Source of the DNA: Arenicellales bacterium
GTDB taxonomy: Bacteria > Pseudomonadota > Gammaproteobacteria > BMS3Bbin11
Assembly (NCBI GenBank): GCA_029287915.1
Contig: JARFQE010000095.1
Span: 1 to 50,095, forward strand
DNA length: 50,095 nt
Direction of reading: 5' to 3'
Shown in pieces: positions 29,019 through 39,059 of this stretch. The notes under the pieces were generated by a model that was given only the letters and a program-made list of their open reading frames with translations, did not search any database and was not told where the DNA came from. A program made the position numbers and the translations under genes. Every line of letters begins with the position of its first letter. Positions within the stretch are counted from its first letter, which is position 1.

Positions 29019-29312
29019 ATGGCACAGATAAACATCAGAAAGAAACACTCTCTTGGTAAAAAAGGAGCACGTAAGACTGCAGAAAAGATTGCTGAATCTC
29101 TGTCCTGTGAGTACAAAGCCAAATGTAAATGGACTGATGATGATCTCTCTTTCACCTCGCACGGCGTCAAAGGAAAACTGCATGTCGGCGATGAAGATGT
29201 CGAGATCAGGGTTGACCTCGGATTGATGATGAGCCCACTCAAATCGAAGATCGAATCAACTATCGTGTCGCAGCTGGATGATATTCTTGACGATGATACA
29301 AACATCGCCTGA
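29019..29312 (+). CDS. Polyhydroxyalkanoic acid system family protein
   Basis: 97 residues matching the PHA_gran_rgn (TIGR02610) family. It begins with AQINIRKKHSLGKKGARKTA (the basic HxLG start), the middle has CKWTDDDLSFTSHGVKGKLH, and then VEIRVDLGLMMSPLKSKIES and a C-terminal acidic tail. The family is named from occurrence in PHA-producing bacteria; the molecular role is not settled. No phaC, phaB or phasin gene is adjacent, although an H1/phasin-like protein is encoded at 38448. It is tail-to-tail with the HMA_2 gene. Confidence 0.85.
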   Translation: MAQINIRKKHSLGKKGARKTAEKIAESLSCEYKAKCKWTDDDLSFTSHGVKGKLHVGDEDVEIRVDLGLMMSPLKSKIESTIVSQLDDILDDDTNIA

Positions 29313-29324
29313 GCTGGTGCTGCT

Positions 29325-29813
29325 TTATTCGCCTTCTACGTTGTGATCAAAGGTGTCAATCTTCTCTGCCAGGCTCCAGGCGTGCATTAGCATCGGCAGA
29401 GCGGGACCAAGAATATGGCCATGTAATACCTGTCGGATAGTCAGAACCATCAGGGCCAGGTAGGCCATTGTGCGGAGGTCCACGCGGCTATTAGTACCCT
29501 GGTAGATTTTCCTGTTAAGGCGGTGGATGTTAGACAGAAATGGTGCCATCGAAGGAGTTGCTTCATGCTGCCCTTCGACGATTTCGAACAACTCGAGTTT
29601 TTCAAGCTCTTCAACCACTTCCGACCACTCCGTGTCGGGATAGTGCATCACGATACAGCCGGAAATCCTGTTGGTATGGAAGTTTGACAGGCTGTCCAGA
29701 GTTGACAATTTGTCTATGGCCCGATCGAAAAAATCATCGTTGTTACGCATTTCATCGAGCCGCAGTCGAACCCGGCTTCTTAACTGGTGAACAATATACG
29801 CTTCTGGCAACAT
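29325..29813 (-). CDS. HMA_2 domain-containing protein
   Basis: 162 residues. The first 90 residues have an HMA_2-type fold (EAYIVHQLRSRVRLRLDEM, NFHTNRISGCIVMHYPDTEW, EVVEELEKLELFEIVEG) without any CxxC metal site. A hydrophobic segment near the C-terminus (MAYLALMVLTIRQVLHGHI plus LGPALPMLM) suggests a membrane anchor. The same kind of domain begins the P-type ATPase at 35985, so both may belong to one system. It starts 9 bp after the DUF5132 gene, forming a two-gene minus-strand unit. No clear ribosome binding site; coupling to DUF5132 is likely. Confidence 0.8.
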   Translation of the reverse strand: MLPEAYIVHQLRSRVRLRLDEMRNNDDFFDRAIDKLSTLDSLSNFHTNRISGCIVMHYPDTEWSEVVEELEKLELFEIVEGQHEATPSMAPFLSNIHRLNRKIYQGTNSRVDLRTMAYLALMVLTIRQVLHGHILGPALPMLMHAWSLAEKIDTFDHNVEGE

Positions 29814-29822
29814 TACTGATGC

Positions 29823-30107
29823 TTATTTATCGGAAGCTGCTTTGACGGTTTCATCGACAGCTTCAGCAACGGCTTCACCAGTTCGTTCTTCGGTTAATTC
29901 TTCTTCTACCTCGGCCCTGACGTCATCAAAAGTCTCACCCAGTTCCTCGAGTGTTTCACGACCTTTCTCATAAACCATCAGACCTGACTTGAGGGCAGTT
30001 CTGGCCAGCGGGCGAATCACTGGAGCAAGGGCAATCATTGCCACCGGGACGAGAAGTGCCACACCCACACCGAGGGCGGCGCCCTTGAGTAAATCTTCGT
30101 TACGCAT
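29823..30107 (-). CDS. DUF5132 domain-containing small membrane protein
   Basis: 94 residues. It begins MRNEDLLKGAALGVGVALLV and runs into PVAMIALAPVIRPLARTALK, a Gly/Ala-rich transmembrane segment that is the DUF5132 signature. It ends in a highly acidic helical tail (FDDVRAEVEEELTEERTGEA). GGAGATTTAACC precedes the ATG. DUF5132 genes are commonly found beside HMA_2 proteins and P-type ATPases; the function is unknown. Here it leads the HMA_2 gene. Confidence 0.82.
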   Translation of the reverse strand: MRNEDLLKGAALGVGVALLVPVAMIALAPVIRPLARTALKSGLMVYEKGRETLEELGETFDDVRAEVEEELTEERTGEAVAEAVDETVKAASDK

Positions 30108-30326: not shown

Positions 30327-30536
30327 ATGATCTTTCGTTTACTTCTTGGTGCTGGTTTAATTGCCGTCGGTTATTATGTTGGCCGCACAGTTGGGCGTAG
30401 TGAATTGCTTGACCGTAAACTGCATGGGAAAGGCCGTAAAAGGCGGGTCGAAGGCAAGGTTGTCGATGCCACGGAATACAAAGTCACAAGTGGCGATGAC
30501 AGTAGTCAGTCTAAAAGTGGTCAGGGTGGCACATGA
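30327..30536 (+). CDS. Small single-pass membrane protein
   Basis: 69 residues from ATG 30327, which has AAGGAG at good spacing; an upstream in-frame start lacks this. It has one transmembrane helix (IFRLLLGAGLIAVGYYVGRT) followed by a basic patch (KLHGKGRKRRVEGKV) and a Ser/Gly-rich tail. No family recognised. Its stop overlaps the EcsC start by ATGA (30533-30536), so the two proteins are made together. Confidence 0.75.
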   Translation: MIFRLLLGAGLIAVGYYVGRTVGRSELLDRKLHGKGRKRRVEGKVVDATEYKVTSGDDSSQSKSGQGGT

Positions 30537-31333
30537 GCGATCTCCCTGTTGCTATGGAAGAGGATGACCTCGAAGCGCTGAGGGATGCTACCCGCCATCT
30601 TGAACATCCCAGTCTTGCCATGCGGCTATCCGGTATTATCGGCACCCAGATAGATATTGCTATCAAGCTGTTGCCACGTTCCATGTACAAGCGTGCACAA
30701 TCGATTGCGGAAACTGCCATGACAAAAGCACTAAAGACCGCTGTATCTTCACTGCGTCATCAAGAGTATAGTGATACCAATGATCATATGTACCGTATAC
30801 TTGCAGCGGGCTCGGGAGCTGTAGGCGGCGTGTTCGGTTTATACAGCATTCCGATCGAACTTGGAGTCAGCACCACCATCATGTTACGTTCAATTGCTGA
30901 AATAGCCCGTGCGGAAGGCGAAGATATTCGTGAGCCGGAGACACAACTGGCCTGCCTGGAAGTCTTCGCGCTCGGCGGTGAATCTGAGGTCGATGATGCT
31001 GCCGAATCCGGCTATTACGGGATACGCCTTGCTCTGGCATGGCCGGTTTCACATGCGGCACATCATCTTGCTCGCCATGGTCTGGCTGCCGATGGGCCTG
31101 TACTGACTAGACTGGTTTCAGCAATCGGTTCTCGATTCGGCATTGCCGTGTCACAAAAGACGGCTGCCTTGATGATTCCACTGATTGGCGCTGCCAGCGC
31201 TGCTACCATTAATGTTGTTTTTATTAATCACTTTCAGGAAATGGCACGTGGCCATTTTGTTGTCCGCCGACTTGAACGCAAGTACGGTAAAGAGCTGGTA
31301 CAGGCAAACTATGAAAATTTTGTCAACGCTTAG
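30533..31333 (+). CDS. EcsC-family protein
   Basis: 266 residues of the EcsC (PF12787) family: IIGTQIDIAIKLLPRSMYKR near the N-terminus, AAGSGAVGGVFGLYSIPIEL, VSTTIMLRSIAEIARAEGED, CLEVFALGGESEVDDAAESG and MIPLIGAASAATINVVFINH. The last two are the characteristic blocks. The name comes from Bacillus EcsC, a protein of unknown function beside the Ecs ABC transporter; proteobacterial members occur in stress-related islands. Hydrophobic segments suggest membrane association. Translationally coupled to the small membrane protein upstream. Confidence 0.88.
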   Translation: MSDLPVAMEEDDLEALRDATRHLEHPSLAMRLSGIIGTQIDIAIKLLPRSMYKRAQSIAETAMTKALKTAVSSLRHQEYSDTNDHMYRILAAGSGAVGGVFGLYSIPIELGVSTTIMLRSIAEIARAEGEDIREPETQLACLEVFALGGESEVDDAAESGYYGIRLALAWPVSHAAHHLARHGLAADGPVLTRLVSAIGSRFGIAVSQKTAALMIPLIGAASAATINVVFINHFQEMARGHFVVRRLERKYGKELVQANYENFVNA

Positions 31334-31636: not shown

Positions 31637-32821
31637 CTATTTCAGCTTTTGGGCCATGTCCGTACTCTCCCATGGTACATCAAGCTTAGCACGGCCCATG
31701 TGCCCATAGACTGCAAGCTTGCGATAAAAACCTTCCGGCCGAGCGCTTAGTTTTTTCAGGCCCAGGTCACGCACGATTCCGCCGGGGCGAAAATCTATTA
31801 CCTCATGTAAACGATCAGCAATTGCACCATCATCGAGTTCACTGCTGCCGAAGGTACGTACCCGAAGGCTAACCGGACGTGCACTACCAATCGAATAACT
31901 CAACTGCACTTCACACTCCCGGGCCAGCCCTGCAGCAACAACATTTTTTGCCGCATAGCGGGCAATATAGGCACCAGCGCGATCTATCCGCATTGGATCC
32001 TTGCCACTGAGTGCGGCACCACTGGTACGCGCATAGCCGCCATAGGTGTCTATGCCGGTCTTACGGCCGGTCAGCCCGGAATGGATCGCTGGGCCGCCAC
32101 TTCTTCGTAGTACGCCAGGATTGATGTGAATAATTGTGTCAGCATCTGACAGAATCTTTTCTTTCTTCAATACTGGCTCAATTACTTTAGCAATCAGGTC
32201 TTCACGCAAGTCCTTTCTGTCAATATCGACGTTGTCATTCTGAGAGGCTACAAGTGTGATGCTGTGAATACGGGCAGGCTGGCTATCCTGAAATTCGAAA
32301 GCGACCTGAATCTCGGCATCGGGCAGCAGATAAGGCAGCTTTTTAATCACTTTTTTCTCGTCCATGCGATAGGCAAGACGATGTGCAAGCCAAATTGGTA
32401 ACGGCATCAAATCCTCAGTATGGTCACAGGCATAACCGAAGACACTGGTCTGCTGGCGAGCGATGATCGAGTCGATTTCCTTATCTGACATTCCATCCAG
32501 GTCTATCGGCATGTAATCCGTGGTGCTGTGGTCCATTAAGCTGGTCAGGATAGTACAGTCCTCTGCATCAAAGACATCCTTAGGATAACCGATTTCTCGT
32601 ATTGTTCGACGTGCTATATCCGAAATATCCAGCGTAGCCGCTGATGCATAATGACTGGAGATGAACATGACGCCGCTGGATACAGCGCACTCTGCTTTGA
32701 TCATGGCATCTGGGTCCTGCATCAGGAAGTGATCGACGATAGCATCACTGACCTGGTCACAGATTTTATCCGGATGCCCGCAGGTTACGGACTCCGAGGT
32801 GAATACAAAGCCATTAGTCAT
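31637..32821 (-). CDS. metK: Divergent methionine adenosyltransferase (MetK paralogue)
   Basis: 394 residues, full length for S-adenosylmethionine synthetase. Conserved parts are FTSESVTCGHPDKICDQVSD (H16, D18, K19), AECAV, SVFGYACDHTEDLMPLPI, SGLTGRKTGIDTYGGYA, ALSGKDPMRIDRAGAYIARY and AKNVVAAGLA. Compared by eye with E. coli MetK, several active-site positions differ: the Asp of GDQG is Gln (ARQQTS), the Lys of DAKSQV is Glu (DAEIQV), the Asp of GDxGLTGRK is His (AIHSGLTGRK), and HGGGAFSGKD reads TSGAALSGKD. It may have lower, altered or regulated activity, so the symbol denotes family only. It overlaps the Ca2+-ATPase stop by ATGA, so it is cotranslated with an ion pump, an unusual context; a housekeeping metK is presumably elsewhere. 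Confidence 0.87.
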   Translation of the reverse strand: MTNGFVFTSESVTCGHPDKICDQVSDAIVDHFLMQDPDAMIKAECAVSSGVMFISSHYASAATLDISDIARRTIREIGYPKDVFDAEDCTILTSLMDHSTTDYMPIDLDGMSDKEIDSIIARQQTSVFGYACDHTEDLMPLPIWLAHRLAYRMDEKKVIKKLPYLLPDAEIQVAFEFQDSQPARIHSITLVASQNDNVDIDRKDLREDLIAKVIEPVLKKEKILSDADTIIHINPGVLRRSGGPAIHSGLTGRKTGIDTYGGYARTSGAALSGKDPMRIDRAGAYIARYAAKNVVAAGLARECEVQLSYSIGSARPVSLRVRTFGSSELDDGAIADRLHEVIDFRPGGIVRDLGLKKLSARPEGFYRKLAVYGHMGRAKLDVPWESTDMAQKLK

Positions 32822-35800
32822 GATAAATCCTCCGCATCGTTTTCTTTTTCACTTGCTGTTAAAGGCTCGGTGATTACTCCGTCATCCAGTGATTCAATTT
32901 CAGGCATTGTCGGCTTACGTGCCTCATTGATTGCCAGTGGAATGATGACACTGCCTGCAAGCACCATTAGGTCAGAAATTCCCATTGGAGCTGTACCCAG
33001 CAGCCGCCTGAATGACGGCACCACACTGACTATCGCCTGCAATCCGGCCATCCCCAGAATGGCCTTGTTGAGGTGTGGATTCGGCGGTAGATCACTACTG
33101 ACATTAAACACATGCCGATGTTTAGATCGAGAGCTGTAAGCATGCGCAAGTTCATTCAGAGTCAGGGCATTGAAGGCAAGCGTGCTCGCTGCAGCTCCGG
33201 GTCCATAGCGCTTCAGACCATAGGCATAGGCTGCCATAGTGCCGACACCAATGATGCCTGATTCGATGGTCATTTGTTTCAGATCCTGACCGCCTATAAT
33301 CGCATCTTCACTTCCTCGTGGCGGATTTGCCATGATGTCTTTTTCCGCTGGTTCCATCGATAGTGCAAGGCCGGGAAAGATATCTGTTACCAGGTTGATC
33401 CACAATAGCTGCATCGAGTTCATCGGCTGACCCATGCCGCTGGCAATGCCAGCAAGCATTACTTCAATCTCTGTCAGGTTGGTCGAGACCATGAAATGGA
33501 TCATTTTGCGAATGTTATTATAGATGGTACGTCCCTGACGGACAGCAATAGCCATCGTATGCAGGTTGTCATCTTCAAGTACAACATCCGATACATCTCG
33601 TGCCACATTTGTACCGCTTTCGCCCATTGCTACGCCGATATCGGCTGCTTTCAACGCAGGCCCATCATTGATGCCGTCGCCCGTCATTGCGACGACACGA
33701 CCGGCATCCTGGAACGCCTGAACTATGCGCAATTTATGAGCTGGACTGACACGGGCAAAGACGTGTACATTTTTGACCAGTCCGGCAAGAAGTTCAGCTT
33801 CGACATCCTCCAGTTTGCTGGATTCGAGGACCTGCAGAGGCTTGTCACCACTTAACCCCAGTTGCTTGCCAATAGCCTGTGCTGTTGCGGCCTGGTCACC
33901 GGTAATCATTACAGTTTCTATACCGGCACGATGGAATTGAGATATCAGTATATCCATGCCTTCGCGCATAGGATCAGCCATGCCAGCAAGTCCAAGCCAG
34001 ACCAGCTTGCCTGTTTTACGTGGCATTCTGTCTTCATCAAGTTCGCGATAAGCAACAGCTAGAACACGCAGTGCATCGCCGGCCATGCGATCATTTTCTG
34101 TTATAATTGCATGACGTGCTGCGTCGGTCAGTGGGATGCGTCGACCGTTGCGAATCTGCTCTTCACACATCGCCAGGACTTGCTCCGGGCTGCCCTTGAC
34201 GGCGAGCAGATGCTTACCGCCTTTCCATGAGTGCAGAGTAGTCATGTAAGGACGTCCCTCTGCCCGATCACGGCTACGCAATCGAGGATGGCTTCCACGC
34301 AAGGCCTCGACATCCAATCCGGCTTCTAGTGCAAGATCAACCAGTGCCATTTCAGTGGGGGAGCCGTTCTGTCGTCTTTCACCATCAATCTCAGTGAACT
34401 CGGTATCACTGCACAGCGCAACGATGTTCATTAATTCTCTTGTTTCACGTAGATTGACAGCATCTATAGCTCCACCATCATCGATGAATTGCTGACCAGC
34501 GATAACATAGGCCTTATCACCGCAATACACTGATACCACTGCCATACGGTTCATCGTCAGCGTGCCTGTCTTGTCCATGCAGAAGACCTGTACCGAGCCG
34601 AGAGTTTCAACAGCATCCAGGTGGCGCACGGCGACCTTGTGTTTTCGCATGTCGGCGATACCCATTGCCAGGGTCGTCGTGGCCACAGCAGGCAGGCCTT
34701 CGGGTACTGCAGCGACAGCAAGAGAAACAGATGCCTTCAGCATTTCCAGTACTGCATAACCGCGCATGACACCGACACCGAATACACCGGCACAGACGCC
34801 GCCGCTGAGTAGCGCCAGGGTCGTGCCCATTTTATCGAGTTGCTTCTGCATCGGCGTTTCCGGTGCTTCAGCTTCACCAACCATGGTCTGGATCTGTCCC
34901 AGTTCCGTAGCAGCAGCAGTTGCCACAACGACAGCTCGACCGTTTCCACCACTTATATGTGTGCCCATGTAGGCCATGTTGCTGCGGTCACCCAGAGAGG
35001 TCTTCTTCGGTGCGACAAAGTTATGGTCCTTGTTGACCGGCAGGCTTTCGCCAGTCAGGGCAGACTCATCAACTGTGAGACGGTGTGAACTAAGCAGGCG
35101 CGCATCTGCTGCAACATAGGTGCCGGGTGTAAAGATTAGGATATCGCCGGGAACAATCGCTTCAATATTGATCTCTGATTGCTGTCCATTGCGCACGACG
35201 CCAACTGTTCGCACACCGGTGTCAGACAGTGAACTGATGGTCTTTTCAGCCTGGCGTTCGGTAACAAAGCCTATGGCTGAGTTGATGATGACAACCCCTA
35301 GTATCACCGCTGCATCGATCAGACCTCCTGTCATAATAGCGATTACAGCGGAACCACACAGCATGAAGACCGGCGGGCTGTTGAACTGGCTCAACAGGAT
35401 TGACAGATCGGAACGGGCCGCACTGGCAGAGAGACTGTTTTCTCCAAAACGCTGCAGCCGCTGTAAAGCTTCCTCATCATCAAGCCCGCTGCGCTTTGAG
35501 GTATCTAATATTTTCAGCAGATCATCAAGTTCCTGCACATGCCATGCCTGTTGCTTCTGGGCTTCTGCATTCGTTGTACTGGCTGATTGAGCAGGTGAAC
35601 GACTAAAAATCGGAATTGACCTGATTATGGCAGGGATGCTGTCAAATAGCCCTGCAGCTGAATCGATGGCCTGTTTAATCTTCAGCGTGTCAAACGTCGT
35701 GGACTGTCGTGGTTTACTACGTATTTTGCCAACATCGACCAGGTGCTCCTCGATTGCTACGATGATGTCTTCCATCATCATATCGGGCTGATATACAACA

Positions 35801-35985
35801 AGCAGACGTCCAGTCAGAACATTGGCAGTGACACATTGCACGCCATTGACATCATTTAATACTGATTCAAGGCGCTGTTTGATGCGGTTACAACGGTAGA
35901 GACCGGCGACCTCGAAACGTGTGCGTCCCGCTACACTTGCGTGTACCACTGCGAGGTGCTCTGAAACTGGTGAAGCAGCAGACAC
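32818..35985 (-). CDS. P2-type Ca2+-transporting ATPase with HMA-like N-terminal domain
   Basis: 1055 residues (GTG start at 35985, AAGGA upstream). Residues 10-85 form an HMA_2-like domain without CxxC; a roughly 70-residue linker follows. The pump has the cation-ATPase N-terminus (QELDDLLKILDTSKRSGL), the actuator TGES (311-314), PEGLPA (428-433) in helix M4, the phosphorylation site DKTGTLTMN (D471), KGSPEQVL for nucleotide binding and TGDGINDGPALKAADIG (768 on). The PEGLP motif, NLTE (N836, E839) in M5 and NLVTD (N864, D868) in M6 correspond to Ca2+ ligands of SERCA, so Ca2+ export is the best guess; Mn2+ is possible. First gene of an operon with the metK paralogue, behind an FNR/Anr-type promoter. 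Confidence 0.92.
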   Translation of the reverse strand: MSAASPVSEHLAVVHASVAGRTRFEVAGLYRCNRIKQRLESVLNDVNGVQCVTANVLTGRLLVVYQPDMMMEDIIVAIEEHLVDVGKIRSKPRQSTTFDTLKIKQAIDSAAGLFDSIPAIIRSIPIFSRSPAQSASTTNAEAQKQQAWHVQELDDLLKILDTSKRSGLDDEEALQRLQRFGENSLSASAARSDLSILLSQFNSPPVFMLCGSAVIAIMTGGLIDAAVILGVVIINSAIGFVTERQAEKTISSLSDTGVRTVGVVRNGQQSEINIEAIVPGDILIFTPGTYVAADARLLSSHRLTVDESALTGESLPVNKDHNFVAPKKTSLGDRSNMAYMGTHISGGNGRAVVVATAAATELGQIQTMVGEAEAPETPMQKQLDKMGTTLALLSGGVCAGVFGVGVMRGYAVLEMLKASVSLAVAAVPEGLPAVATTTLAMGIADMRKHKVAVRHLDAVETLGSVQVFCMDKTGTLTMNRMAVVSVYCGDKAYVIAGQQFIDDGGAIDAVNLRETRELMNIVALCSDTEFTEIDGERRQNGSPTEMALVDLALEAGLDVEALRGSHPRLRSRDRAEGRPYMTTLHSWKGGKHLLAVKGSPEQVLAMCEEQIRNGRRIPLTDAARHAIITENDRMAGDALRVLAVAYRELDEDRMPRKTGKLVWLGLAGMADPMREGMDILISQFHRAGIETVMITGDQAATAQAIGKQLGLSGDKPLQVLESSKLEDVEAELLAGLVKNVHVFARVSPAHKLRIVQAFQDAGRVVAMTGDGINDGPALKAADIGVAMGESGTNVARDVSDVVLEDDNLHTMAIAVRQGRTIYNNIRKMIHFMVSTNLTEIEVMLAGIASGMGQPMNSMQLLWINLVTDIFPGLALSMEPAEKDIMANPPRGSEDAIIGGQDLKQMTIESGIIGVGTMAAYAYGLKRYGPGAAASTLAFNALTLNELAHAYSSRSKHRHVFNVSSDLPPNPHLNKAILGMAGLQAIVSVVPSFRRLLGTAPMGISDLMVLAGSVIIPLAINEARKPTMPEIESLDDGVITEPLTASEKENDAEDLS

Positions 35986-36023
35986 TAGATCTTCATCCTT
36001 CAGATAATTTAGCCAGTAGATGC

Positions 36024-36066
36024 ATTGTATGCTTTTTAGCTGTATCGAATTATTGATCTAAATCAA
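36024..36066 (-). promoter_or_regulatory. FNR/Anr-dependent promoter of the Ca2+-ATPase-metK operon
   Basis: TTGAT-CTAA-ATCAA at 36053-36066 is a perfect FNR/Anr consensus. On the minus strand TACAAT (36029-36024) is a good -10, predicting a start near 36018, which places the box centre at about -41.5, the class II activation position. The GTG start at 35985 is about 33 nt downstream. Being palindromic, the box could also act toward the antiporter gene, but no equally well-placed -10 is seen there. Confidence 0.75.
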
Positions 36067-36236: not shown

Positions 36237-37295
36237 ATGAATGACTCTGTGTTGAGCTGGATAGGTGATGAAACCCTGCTACAGAGCCTGCTAGCCGGGC
36301 AGTCCACGATAATCCTGCTCGTCGTCATCATCGTTTGCATTGCGATGCTGTCAATGGGCGCAGACTGGATGATTGATGGCGTCGTTGATCTTGCCGAGCG
36401 GACAGGTCTGCCTAAGATTGTTATCGGTGCAACTGTCGTCTCACTGGGTACCACCTTACCCGAAGCCTTTGTCTCTGTGATGGCAGCTTACATGGGCAAT
36501 CCCGGACTGGCACTGGGCAATGGTGTTGGCTCCATCATCGCCGATACCGGTCTCATATTCGGCCTGACCTGTATACTAGCGGCTGTACCTGTTAACCGTT
36601 TCATCCTTAACCGGACGGGCTGGGTACAGGTTGGCACTGCGACACTACTGGTGCTGATATCCATCGGTGTATTGTTGACGACTGATGATGACCCGAAACT
36701 GGAACGCTGGGTTGGCTTTCTGTTTCTGGGTCTGCTGCTGCTGTATCTGTACATTACTTATGTATGGGCCAAACAGGGGACAGGTGTGTTGCCCGAAGAC
36801 GAAGCTCTGGAACATGAACTGATGAGTGTAGGCAAAAGCTGGATTCTCATCGTTGGTGGTCTGCTTCTGGTTATTATCGGCGCCCGCATTCTGGTACCGA
36901 GTGCCTCTGAGATTGCTATGCGCTTTGGAGTTCCGGACGATGTGATTGCTGCGACAATGGTCGCATTCGGCACATCGCTCCCAGAGCTAATGACTGCCAT
37001 TGCTGCAATTCGCAAGGGTCATCCGGAGATAACCGTAGGCAATATCGTCGGTGCCGACGTCCTCAATGTACTGTTTGTCATCGGTGCTGCTGCAGTGGCT
37101 TCACCGCTGGTTATTCCGATGAATTTCTATTATTTTCATTTCCCTGCCATGCTGATCATCCTGTTCTCGTTCAGGATATTTATATCGATGAACAAGGAAG
37201 GAGTGTTTCATCGCTGGCAGGGCTTCTGGCTGCTGGCTGTATACCTTTGCTATGTCATACTTCAATATACCCTGAATATAGAGAGCGCCCATTAG
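36237..37295 (+). CDS. Ca2+/cation antiporter (CaCA family, YrbG-like)
   Basis: 352 residues, about ten transmembrane helices in two homologous halves. The two alpha-repeat signatures are GATVVSLGTTLPEAFVSVMA with LGNGVGSIIAD in the first half, and TMVAFGTSLPELMTAIAAIR with VGNIVGADVLNVLF in the second. The acidic residue in each G-T-(T/S)-L-P-E motif is the cation ligand. Na+ or H+ would drive Ca2+ movement across the inner membrane. It is divergent from the Ca2+-ATPase gene, so two independent Ca2+ transport systems share one control region. A 40-bp gap leads to the stress protein gene. Substrate from family; K+ or Mn2+ cannot be excluded. Confidence 0.9.
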   Translation: MNDSVLSWIGDETLLQSLLAGQSTIILLVVIIVCIAMLSMGADWMIDGVVDLAERTGLPKIVIGATVVSLGTTLPEAFVSVMAAYMGNPGLALGNGVGSIIADTGLIFGLTCILAAVPVNRFILNRTGWVQVGTATLLVLISIGVLLTTDDDPKLERWVGFLFLGLLLLYLYITYVWAKQGTGVLPEDEALEHELMSVGKSWILIVGGLLLVIIGARILVPSASEIAMRFGVPDDVIAATMVAFGTSLPELMTAIAAIRKGHPEITVGNIVGADVLNVLFVIGAAAVASPLVIPMNFYYFHFPAMLIILFSFRIFISMNKEGVFHRWQGFWLLAVYLCYVILQYTLNIESAH

Positions 37296-37335: not shown

Positions 37336-38268
37336 ATGAATATACTGATTGCCACAGATGGATCGGAGTATGCCAGCAATGCACTGGATTTCATGCTGAG
37401 TTTTCCGTTTCCACGTGATTCGAAAATGACAGTGCTTACTGTTGTCGATGACGTACCAATGCTACAGGCGGAACTCGATGCACTGAATGATGAACAAAGC
37501 GAAGCACTGAAGGTAGCTACCAGTCGCCTGCACGAAGAAGCAGAAGAACTGGTGGCGCGGGAAGGTGCCCGCCTACGTAACGATGACTGGCCTGGAGAAA
37601 CAATGGTACGCAGTGGCAAGCCGGCTGATGAGATCCTGCGTGCTGCCGAAGAAATAGATGCCGATCTAATCGTGCTGGGCTCACACGGTACCGGCATGGC
37701 CAAACGCTTTCTGCTAGGCAGTGTATCAGACCGAGTATTCGAGTATGCATCATGCTCGGTTTTAATCGTAAAGAAGAAAACAGAGGATGAAAAATCAGCA
37801 GTGATCGAATCCGGAGCCAATGCCCCCTACCGGATCATGCTGGCTTATGATAATTCAGATATAGCACATGAAGCACTTGATCTGTGTTCTTCATTACCTC
37901 TGGAAGAGAGCTCGGAAATCAAGGTGGTAAATGTGCTTCCTCTGATTACTGCATACCGCCAGGATATTCGTCAGCACATGAACAGCATCTGGCTGCAAAA
38001 GAAGCAGTTGATGGAGGCTGAGCTTGAAAAGGCGGTCAGATCGTTACAGTGGGCTACACCCAATGTTACGACAGAGTTGCGCGAAGCTGAGAATATCTCT
38101 AATGAAATACTCAATGCTGCGGAGGAAGCTGGCAGCGACCTGATTATGGTTGGATGCAAGGACAAGAGCAGCATCAAACGTTTCCTGCTCGGTTCCATCA
38201 CTCAACACATGGCGCGTTATGCGAAATGTACTGTCTGGGGTGTGCGTAACAAAAACAGCAAAGACTGA
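37336..38268 (+). CDS. Tandem universal stress protein
   Basis: 310 residues with two UspA domains. The first (1-140) starts MNILIATDGSEYASNALDFM and ends with the ATP-binding pattern GSHGTGMAKRFLLGSVSDR. The second (about 155-310) starts YRIMLAYDNSDIAHEAL and ends GCKDKSSIKRFLLGSITQH, where the first Gly motif (G-x2-G) is degraded. So the first domain probably binds ATP while the second may not. Such proteins are cytoplasmic and induced by starvation, low oxygen or envelope stress; in Pseudomonas several are Anr targets. No Anr box is seen directly upstream, so cotranscription with the antiporter gene (40 bp away) is likely. Confidence 0.92.
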   Translation: MNILIATDGSEYASNALDFMLSFPFPRDSKMTVLTVVDDVPMLQAELDALNDEQSEALKVATSRLHEEAEELVAREGARLRNDDWPGETMVRSGKPADEILRAAEEIDADLIVLGSHGTGMAKRFLLGSVSDRVFEYASCSVLIVKKKTEDEKSAVIESGANAPYRIMLAYDNSDIAHEALDLCSSLPLEESSEIKVVNVLPLITAYRQDIRQHMNSIWLQKKQLMEAELEKAVRSLQWATPNVTTELREAENISNEILNAAEEAGSDLIMVGCKDKSSIKRFLLGSITQHMARYAKCTVWGVRNKNSKD

Positions 38269-38447: not shown

Positions 38448-39059
38448 ATGGCCACAAAGAAATCTACATCAAAGAAAAATCAGACTAGATTGACGGATAT
38501 AAAACAGACAGTTTCTTCTACAGCAAGTTCTGTTATAGACGAAATTGATAAAGCCAGTGACGTAGTCATTCGTGAAATACGCGATGGATTTAATGCCATC
38601 AGTGATAAGACAAAAGTTGCTGCAAAGTCAGCTGCTGATGCGTCAGTGAATGTCAAAGATATCGTTGCTGAAGCACACCCAAAAGAAATTTTTCTTTCAC
38701 TGGTAGATGAAGTTGAAGAGATTACTGAAGGTATTGTCAATGTCGTCAAAGATCGCTTCAACCAGCTAGGCAAATCAGCTGAAGGTGCGGCTAAAAAGAA
38801 AGCTGTGAAGAAAAAAGCAGCAAAGAAAGCAGTGAAAAAGAAAGCAGCAAAAAAGACAGTAAAGAAAAAAACTCCCAAAAAAGTCGTAAAGAAAAAAGCT
38901 GTGAAGAAAAAAGCAGCAAAAAAGGCAGTGAAGAAAAAAATTCCCAAAAAAGCTGTAAAGAAAAAAGCGGTTAAAAAAGCAATTAAGAAAAAATCTACCA
39001 CTAACAAGACAGCAAAGAAAAAAGCAGTAAAAAAGAAGGCAGCGAAGAAATCTTCCTGA
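38448..39059 (+). CDS. Histone H1-like Lys/Ala-rich protein with phasin-like N-terminal half
   Basis: 203 residues. The first 115 are a helical domain (TDIKQTVSSTASSVIDEIDK; GFNAISDKTKVAAKSAADAS; EEITEGIVNVVKDRFNQLGK) resembling phasins or other coiled amphipathic helices. The last 88 are almost only Lys, Ala, Val and Thr/Pro in KKAVKKKAAKK-type units, as in histone H1-like and AlgP-like bacterial proteins that bind DNA. The combination could tether DNA to PHA granules or membranes (PhaM/PhaF-like), in keeping with the PHA-system gene nearby, but that is inference. GGAG precedes the ATG. The long open frame on the other strand is an artefact of the AAG-rich repeat. Confidence 0.8.
   Translation: MATKKSTSKKNQTRLTDIKQTVSSTASSVIDEIDKASDVVIREIRDGFNAISDKTKVAAKSAADASVNVKDIVAEAHPKEIFLSLVDEVEEITEGIVNVVKDRFNQLGKSAEGAAKKKAVKKKAAKKAVKKKAAKKTVKKKTPKKVVKKKAVKKKAAKKAVKKKIPKKAVKKKAVKKAIKKKSTTNKTAKKKAVKKKAAKKSS
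38793..39056 (+). repeat. Degenerate Lys-rich coding repeat
   Basis: Low-complexity DNA dominated by AAGAAAAAAGCAGCAAAA-like units encoding the H1-like tail. Unit lengths are multiples of three, so copy-number changes would keep the frame while changing tail length. Confidence 0.7.

Follow-up and report, generated by a model that had tools for sequence, protein, structure and literature searches.

A MetK paralogue encoded with a P2A-type cation pump has probably ceased to be a SAM synthetase

In human MAT2A, residues Glu70, Gln113 and Asp258 (E55, Q98 and D238 in E. coli) take part in methionine and SAM binding, and Arg264 (R244) contacts the gamma phosphate; several human MAT variants, including Asp258Gly and Lys289Asn (K269), lose SAM synthesis while their phosphatase activity is unaffected (PMC6850014). 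P-type ATPases can also have co-encoded partner proteins, such as PacL1, the scaffold of mycobacterial zinc pumps (PMC9374683). Here we describe MetK2, a MetK paralogue encoded together with a cation pump. The open-licence PMC literature yielded nothing relevant on the pump-metK2 pair, on DUF5132 or on inactive MetK paralogues, nor any SAM synthetase branch without methionine. To our knowledge, no branch of SAM synthetases that gave up methionine is known.

The pump-metK2 locus

The window analysed is a stretch of 50,095 nucleotides from an Arenicellales bacterium (contig JARFQE010000095.1). An earlier note on this DNA had placed at 31637-36066 a divergent metK paralogue translationally coupled to a Ca2+-type pump. 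Both genes are confirmed, but the end at 36066 takes in untranslated leader: the coding sequence ends near 35985. The features are as follows.

31637-32821, minus strand: metK2, 394 aa, SAM-synthetase fold, with the methionine pocket lost and the triphosphate/metal site retained (open reading frame, domain and residue comparison)
32818-35985, minus strand: P2A-type (Ca2+-class) cation P-type ATPase, 1055 aa, GTG start (open reading frame, domains and motifs)
32818-32821, minus strand: ATGA overlap of the pump stop and the metK2 start, with a GGAGG ribosome-binding-like sequence just upstream
29823-30107, minus strand: DUF5132 small membrane protein, a recurrent member of the system
29325-29813, minus strand: stand-alone HMA_2 domain protein, a recurrent member of the system
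30533-31333, plus strand: EcsC family protein, a neighbour in 5 of 26 loci

At the junction, ...gcggaggatttatcATGActaat, the pump stop and the metK2 start lie in a common ATGA and GGAGG lies within the pump gene. The shared ATGA is thus seen directly, and the overlap supports the proposed translational coupling.

All three S-AdoMet_synt domains of Pfam are found in the metK2 product. The pump has the full Pfam domain set of a P2A cation ATPase plus an HMA_2-like N-terminus, and contains the motifs DKTGT, TGES, PEGLP, N..E, NLVTD and GDG[IV]ND. Among 23 aligned pumps DKTGT occurs in all and TGES in 22; the predicted site-II Ca2+ ligands, PEGL in M4, N..E in M5 and N..[TS]D in M6, are present in 23/23. 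Judged by sequence, the transported cation would be of the Ca2+ class, with Mn2+ or other divalents possible. A metal-binding CxxC was considered for the HMA domain and rejected: the conserved motif there is [x]GR.R, and the pump of the window has AGRTRF instead of CxxC.

The EcsC family protein, given its low recurrence, appears to be a looser associate. Upstream, a sodium/calcium exchanger (36237-37295) is transcribed divergently from the pump, and the next gene encodes a double universal stress protein (37336-38268). The window also encodes a Lys/Ala-rich (KKAAKK), histone-like tail protein that matches no Pfam family (38448-39059). On the other side, a PHA-granule-region protein (PF09650) is encoded at 29019-29312, near the system; a similar gene occurs at another locus (L052:12004-12303).

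The MetK2 clade and its substrate site

The genome of the window carries a second, canonical metK on another contig (G000:C73), 44% identical to MetK2. Such a copy accompanies MetK2 in 23 of 25 carrier genomes, the two exceptions being draft assemblies, which disposes of the idea that this could be the only metK in the genome. In a maximum-likelihood tree of 24 MetK2 and 34 canonical sequences, MetK2 forms one clade with a support of 100/99; the divergent paralogue is genuine. Matches in 369 genomes of the window's class fall into two groups: MetK2 sequences (E <1e-118) are at least 49% identical, and canonical MetK does not exceed 47% (best E 6e-99). Within the window's own family, one relative carries another MetK2 copy, 76% identical.

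A scan of named genomes places MetK2 in Gammaproteobacteria, Alphaproteobacteria (Methylocystis), Desulfobacterota, Nitrospirota, Cyanobacteria and Acidobacteriota. It is carried by 12 of the 369 genomes, the window's included, and, in searches around two members from the scan, by 13 of 292 cyanobacteria and 21 of 297 Desulfobacterota; these prevalences depend on genome samples drawn evenly across families. A plasmid search gave canonical MetK only, at most 46% identical, and no plasmid-borne MetK2.

We aligned 57 MetK2 with 34 canonical sequences. Residues are numbered as in E. coli, and the E. coli and human numbers were transferred by alignment together with the correspondence between the two. 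The GHPDK, TGRK and SGKDP blocks are all kept in the window's MetK2, and the alignment places Gln, Glu and His at D118, K165 and D238, exactly as the earlier note had stated. As a definition of the change, however, only the last of the three stands: position 118 is mostly Asn across MetK2, with Gln in the window, and K165 is still Lys in 45/57, being absent from the window (Glu) and 11 others. The K165E change is therefore local to a few members and was rejected as a mark of the family.

The near-family-wide changes had otherwise been overlooked. E55 is found in none of the 57 sequences (Arg in 48, His in 5, Gln in 3, Asn in 1). D238 is His in 56 and kept in one, K269 is Arg in 55, F262 is Leu in all 57, and Q98 is kept in only five. 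MetK2 thus does not have the methionine-binding residues E55, Q98 and D238 (human Glu70, Gln113 and Asp258) that mark a MAT. The human Q113A mutant reportedly retains 75% of its activity, so the loss of Q98 is weak evidence by itself. Adenine contacts are affected too: T227 (human Ser247) is replaced, mostly by D, E or G, R229 is lost, as are S186, Q188 and H189, and F230 (human Phe250) is kept in 27/57 and is Arg in the window.

The other half of the active site is retained. H14, D16, E42, R244, K245, K265, S263 and R272 are invariant in MetK2 wherever the column is filled, and D271 is kept in 55/57; the triphosphate/Mg2+/K+ site (H14, D16, E42, R244, K245, K265 and D271) is accordingly invariant or nearly so. 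The pattern resembles the separation of function described in human MAT variants (PMC6850014).

An AlphaFold model of MetK2 has the MAT fold (pLDDT 84; Foldseek TM 0.85-0.88 to solved MATs). Its confidence is below 50 at residues 253-259 and 264-271, which adjoin the changed site, and we draw no argument from its geometry.

Could MetK2 still be a working SAM synthetase with unusual kinetics, supplying SAM near the pump or under stress? The fold would allow it, K165, a residue that matters for SAM synthesis, is mostly kept, and the window's MetK2 scores above the NCBIfam metK equivalog cut-off (365.5 against 309.4); this score and the Lys at position 165 in 45/57 are the points that speak against a loss of SAM synthesis. 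Yet the equivalents of Glu70, Asp258 and Lys289 are replaced throughout the family or almost so, the MetK2 operons contain no recurrent methyltransferase or SAM-using gene, and almost every carrier also has a canonical metK. We regard such an enzyme as very unlikely. Local SAM production and methionine sensing, both suggested by the earlier note, are contradicted by the family-wide loss of methionine-binding residues; its view that a changed reaction is plausible is supported. Neither of the two findings that the note named as refuting it was made: the alignment shows no conservation of the catalytic and binding residues, and the genome has another metK.

The former methionine site has not merely decayed: its replacement is uniform (Arg in 48/57 at E55, His in 56/57 at D238, Leu in 57/57 at F262), which suggests a new ligand. 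The uniform Arg and His leave room, as far as residues can tell, for another nucleophile or ligand. MetK2 might thus be an adenosyltransferase in which ATP donates its adenosyl group to a different nucleophile, one that fits the conserved Arg (E55R) and His (D238H), and the retention of K165 in 45/57 would suit this. But the contacts to adenine have gone too (T227 and R229, the S186/Q188/H189 group, with F230 variable), 12 members, the window's among them, lack K165, and the neighbourhood survey gave neither a substrate candidate nor biosynthetic genes at the MetK2 loci. On balance, we find this activity unlikely.

A conserved operon with the pump

The survey of the pump-metK2 pair covered 56 distinct MetK2 loci with a readable upstream flank. 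A pump of this same P2A type directly precedes metK2, in the same orientation, in 55 of them, which rules out chance adjacency; a short gene or a gap of 0.3-1.2 kb separates the two genes in six of the 55, and in 25 loci (the window and 24 others) they overlap by 4 nt. The exception is Calothrix PCC 7103, with a truncated pump-like gene just downstream of metK2. The encoded protein (L059:11695-13668, 657 aa), which adjoins metK2, is devoid of the nucleotide-binding domain and of DKTGT, having GSGKTG instead.

The pairing is also exclusive. A pump search of the 369 genomes gave matches of at least 48% identity in exactly the 12 MetK2 genomes; the next best pump is 39% identical, the closest further relatives within the same genomes are at about 39-41%, and these have no such N-terminal domain. 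The random chance of hitting the same 12 of 369 genomes is about 1 in 1e22, an estimate that ignores relatedness. The two genes remain together across at least five phyla: Pseudomonadota, Desulfobacterota, Nitrospirota, Cyanobacteria and Acidobacteriota. Operon conservation, exclusive pairing and the selective residue pattern are direct observations.

Patchy presence in all three genome samples and spread across phyla are what one would expect if the pair were simply hitch-hiking on horizontal transfer, with no functional connection. We consider this highly improbable: the genes stay adjacent in 55/56 loci despite a sequence difference of about half and changing other neighbours, and pump and MetK2 distances correlate (r 0.77, 22 loci).

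The near-universal pairing with translational overlap would equally suit a catalytically dead pseudoenzyme, that is, a subunit with a purely structural or allosteric role in the pump, sensing Mg-ATP or PPPi through binding. A lost substrate pocket beside a retained triphosphate/metal site is compatible with this, and PacL1 offers a precedent for a co-encoded P-ATPase partner (PMC9374683). The residues tied to PPPi hydrolysis in published work are nevertheless kept, and a dead subunit seems to us rather unlikely.

Further genes recur around the pair. Of 54 neighbourhoods, 41 encode a DUF5132 protein and most an HMA_2 protein, separate or fused to DUF5132. An amphipathic repeat protein of about 230 aa is found in 20 of 54 loci, usually between HMA_2 and the pump. 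None of the three was detected near canonical metK at 68 loci. Gene calls in the neighbourhoods were made by a simple script, so that the absence of a small gene at a locus is weak evidence.

The repeat protein (L053:6168-6860, L240 and 18 other loci) shows a KG..E.G.D pattern, stands just before the pump in most cases and has a composition like that of granule- or membrane-coating proteins; no Pfam family matched the two members scanned. In the cyanobacterial loci L218, L219, L220, L223, L225 and L228, DUF5132 and HMA_2 are apparently fused upstream of the pump. The Mg2+ channels CorA or MgtE adjoin the pair in five loci (L053, L054, L042, L044 and L067).

A link to phosphate is suggestive, and concerns a minority of loci rather than the system in general. 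Among the first 26 MetK2 loci, PhoU/Pst genes are near five, against one of 68 canonical metK loci (PhoU 5/26 against 1/68; PstA four against none). Pho-box-like sites (12/14) precede the pump in three loci, a modest excess (3/23 against a background of 3/267). At the window locus this link is absent: the best matches upstream of its own pump, 9/14, are at background level. A cluster of PhoB and histidine-kinase neighbours was dropped as evidence, as it mixes unrelated regulators.

Proposed role and comparison with described systems

Instead of making SAM, MetK2 probably serves as a partner of the pump. We favour, with moderate confidence, a MAT-fold protein that does not make SAM, binds and maybe hydrolyses a triphosphate, and works with a P2A divalent-cation pump as its partner on the cytosolic side. 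Among the options raised by the earlier note, a repurposed tripolyphosphatase or ATP-binding protein would fit the residue pattern best.

On this reading MetK2 keeps the dimer-interface site for Mg2+/K+-bound triphosphate, while the residues that contact methionine are gone, as are most of those that contact adenine. Its ligand is most likely a triphosphate, either inorganic or part of a nucleotide, which MetK2 may also hydrolyse. Pump and MetK2 would belong to an assembly in the membrane, together with DUF5132, HMA_2 and, in many lineages, the amphipathic repeat protein, and this assembly probably ties cation export to the cell's triphosphate/phosphate state. We infer the loss of SAM synthesis, the triphosphate as ligand, the contact with the pump and the phosphate-state link. 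We give slightly less than even odds to a further-reaching view: the operon would encode a pump system for divalent cations that has not been described before, with a one-time SAM synthetase as a triphosphate-binding or -hydrolysing subunit that couples cation export to the triphosphate/phosphate state of the cell. If true, the MAT fold would have acquired a new function, and P-type ATPases a new kind of partner.

A whole clade, MetK2, seems to have given up methionine while staying attached to an ion pump. These genes currently appear in databases as metK, so that metabolic models of the carriers include a second SAM synthetase, perhaps wrongly. The operon moreover places DUF5132, the HMA_2 proteins and the repeat family in one context, and the link that it suggests between divalent-cation export and triphosphate/phosphate can be tested.

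The PacL1/DUF1490-CtpC metal efflux platform of mycobacteria (PMC9374683) likewise combines a co-encoded P-type ATPase and a small protein, and in DUF5132, as in PacL1, a single membrane segment precedes a Glu/Ala-rich helix. A PacL-type platform is defined by a DUF1490 scaffold and a P1B-ATPase; here the scaffold candidate is DUF5132 and the pump is P2A, no metal-binding motif was identified, and MetK2 has no counterpart in the PacL1 platform. With the P2A Ca2+-ATPases of PMR1/SERCA type (TIGR01522/TIGR01116) the pump has in common the M4, M5 and M6 motifs, DKTGT and TGES, but it scores under both equivalog cut-offs (639.7 against 798.3 and 556.8 against 703.4) and has the additional HMA_2-like N-terminal domain. 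With MetK/MAT (PF00438-PF02772-PF02773, TIGR01034; E. coli 1P7L/1RG9), MetK2 has in common the fold, the length, the three domains and the triphosphate/Mg/K site. In contrast to canonical MetK, it forms a separate clade in which the methionine and most adenine contacts are replaced, and in nearly all carriers it is a second copy, encoded with a cation pump.
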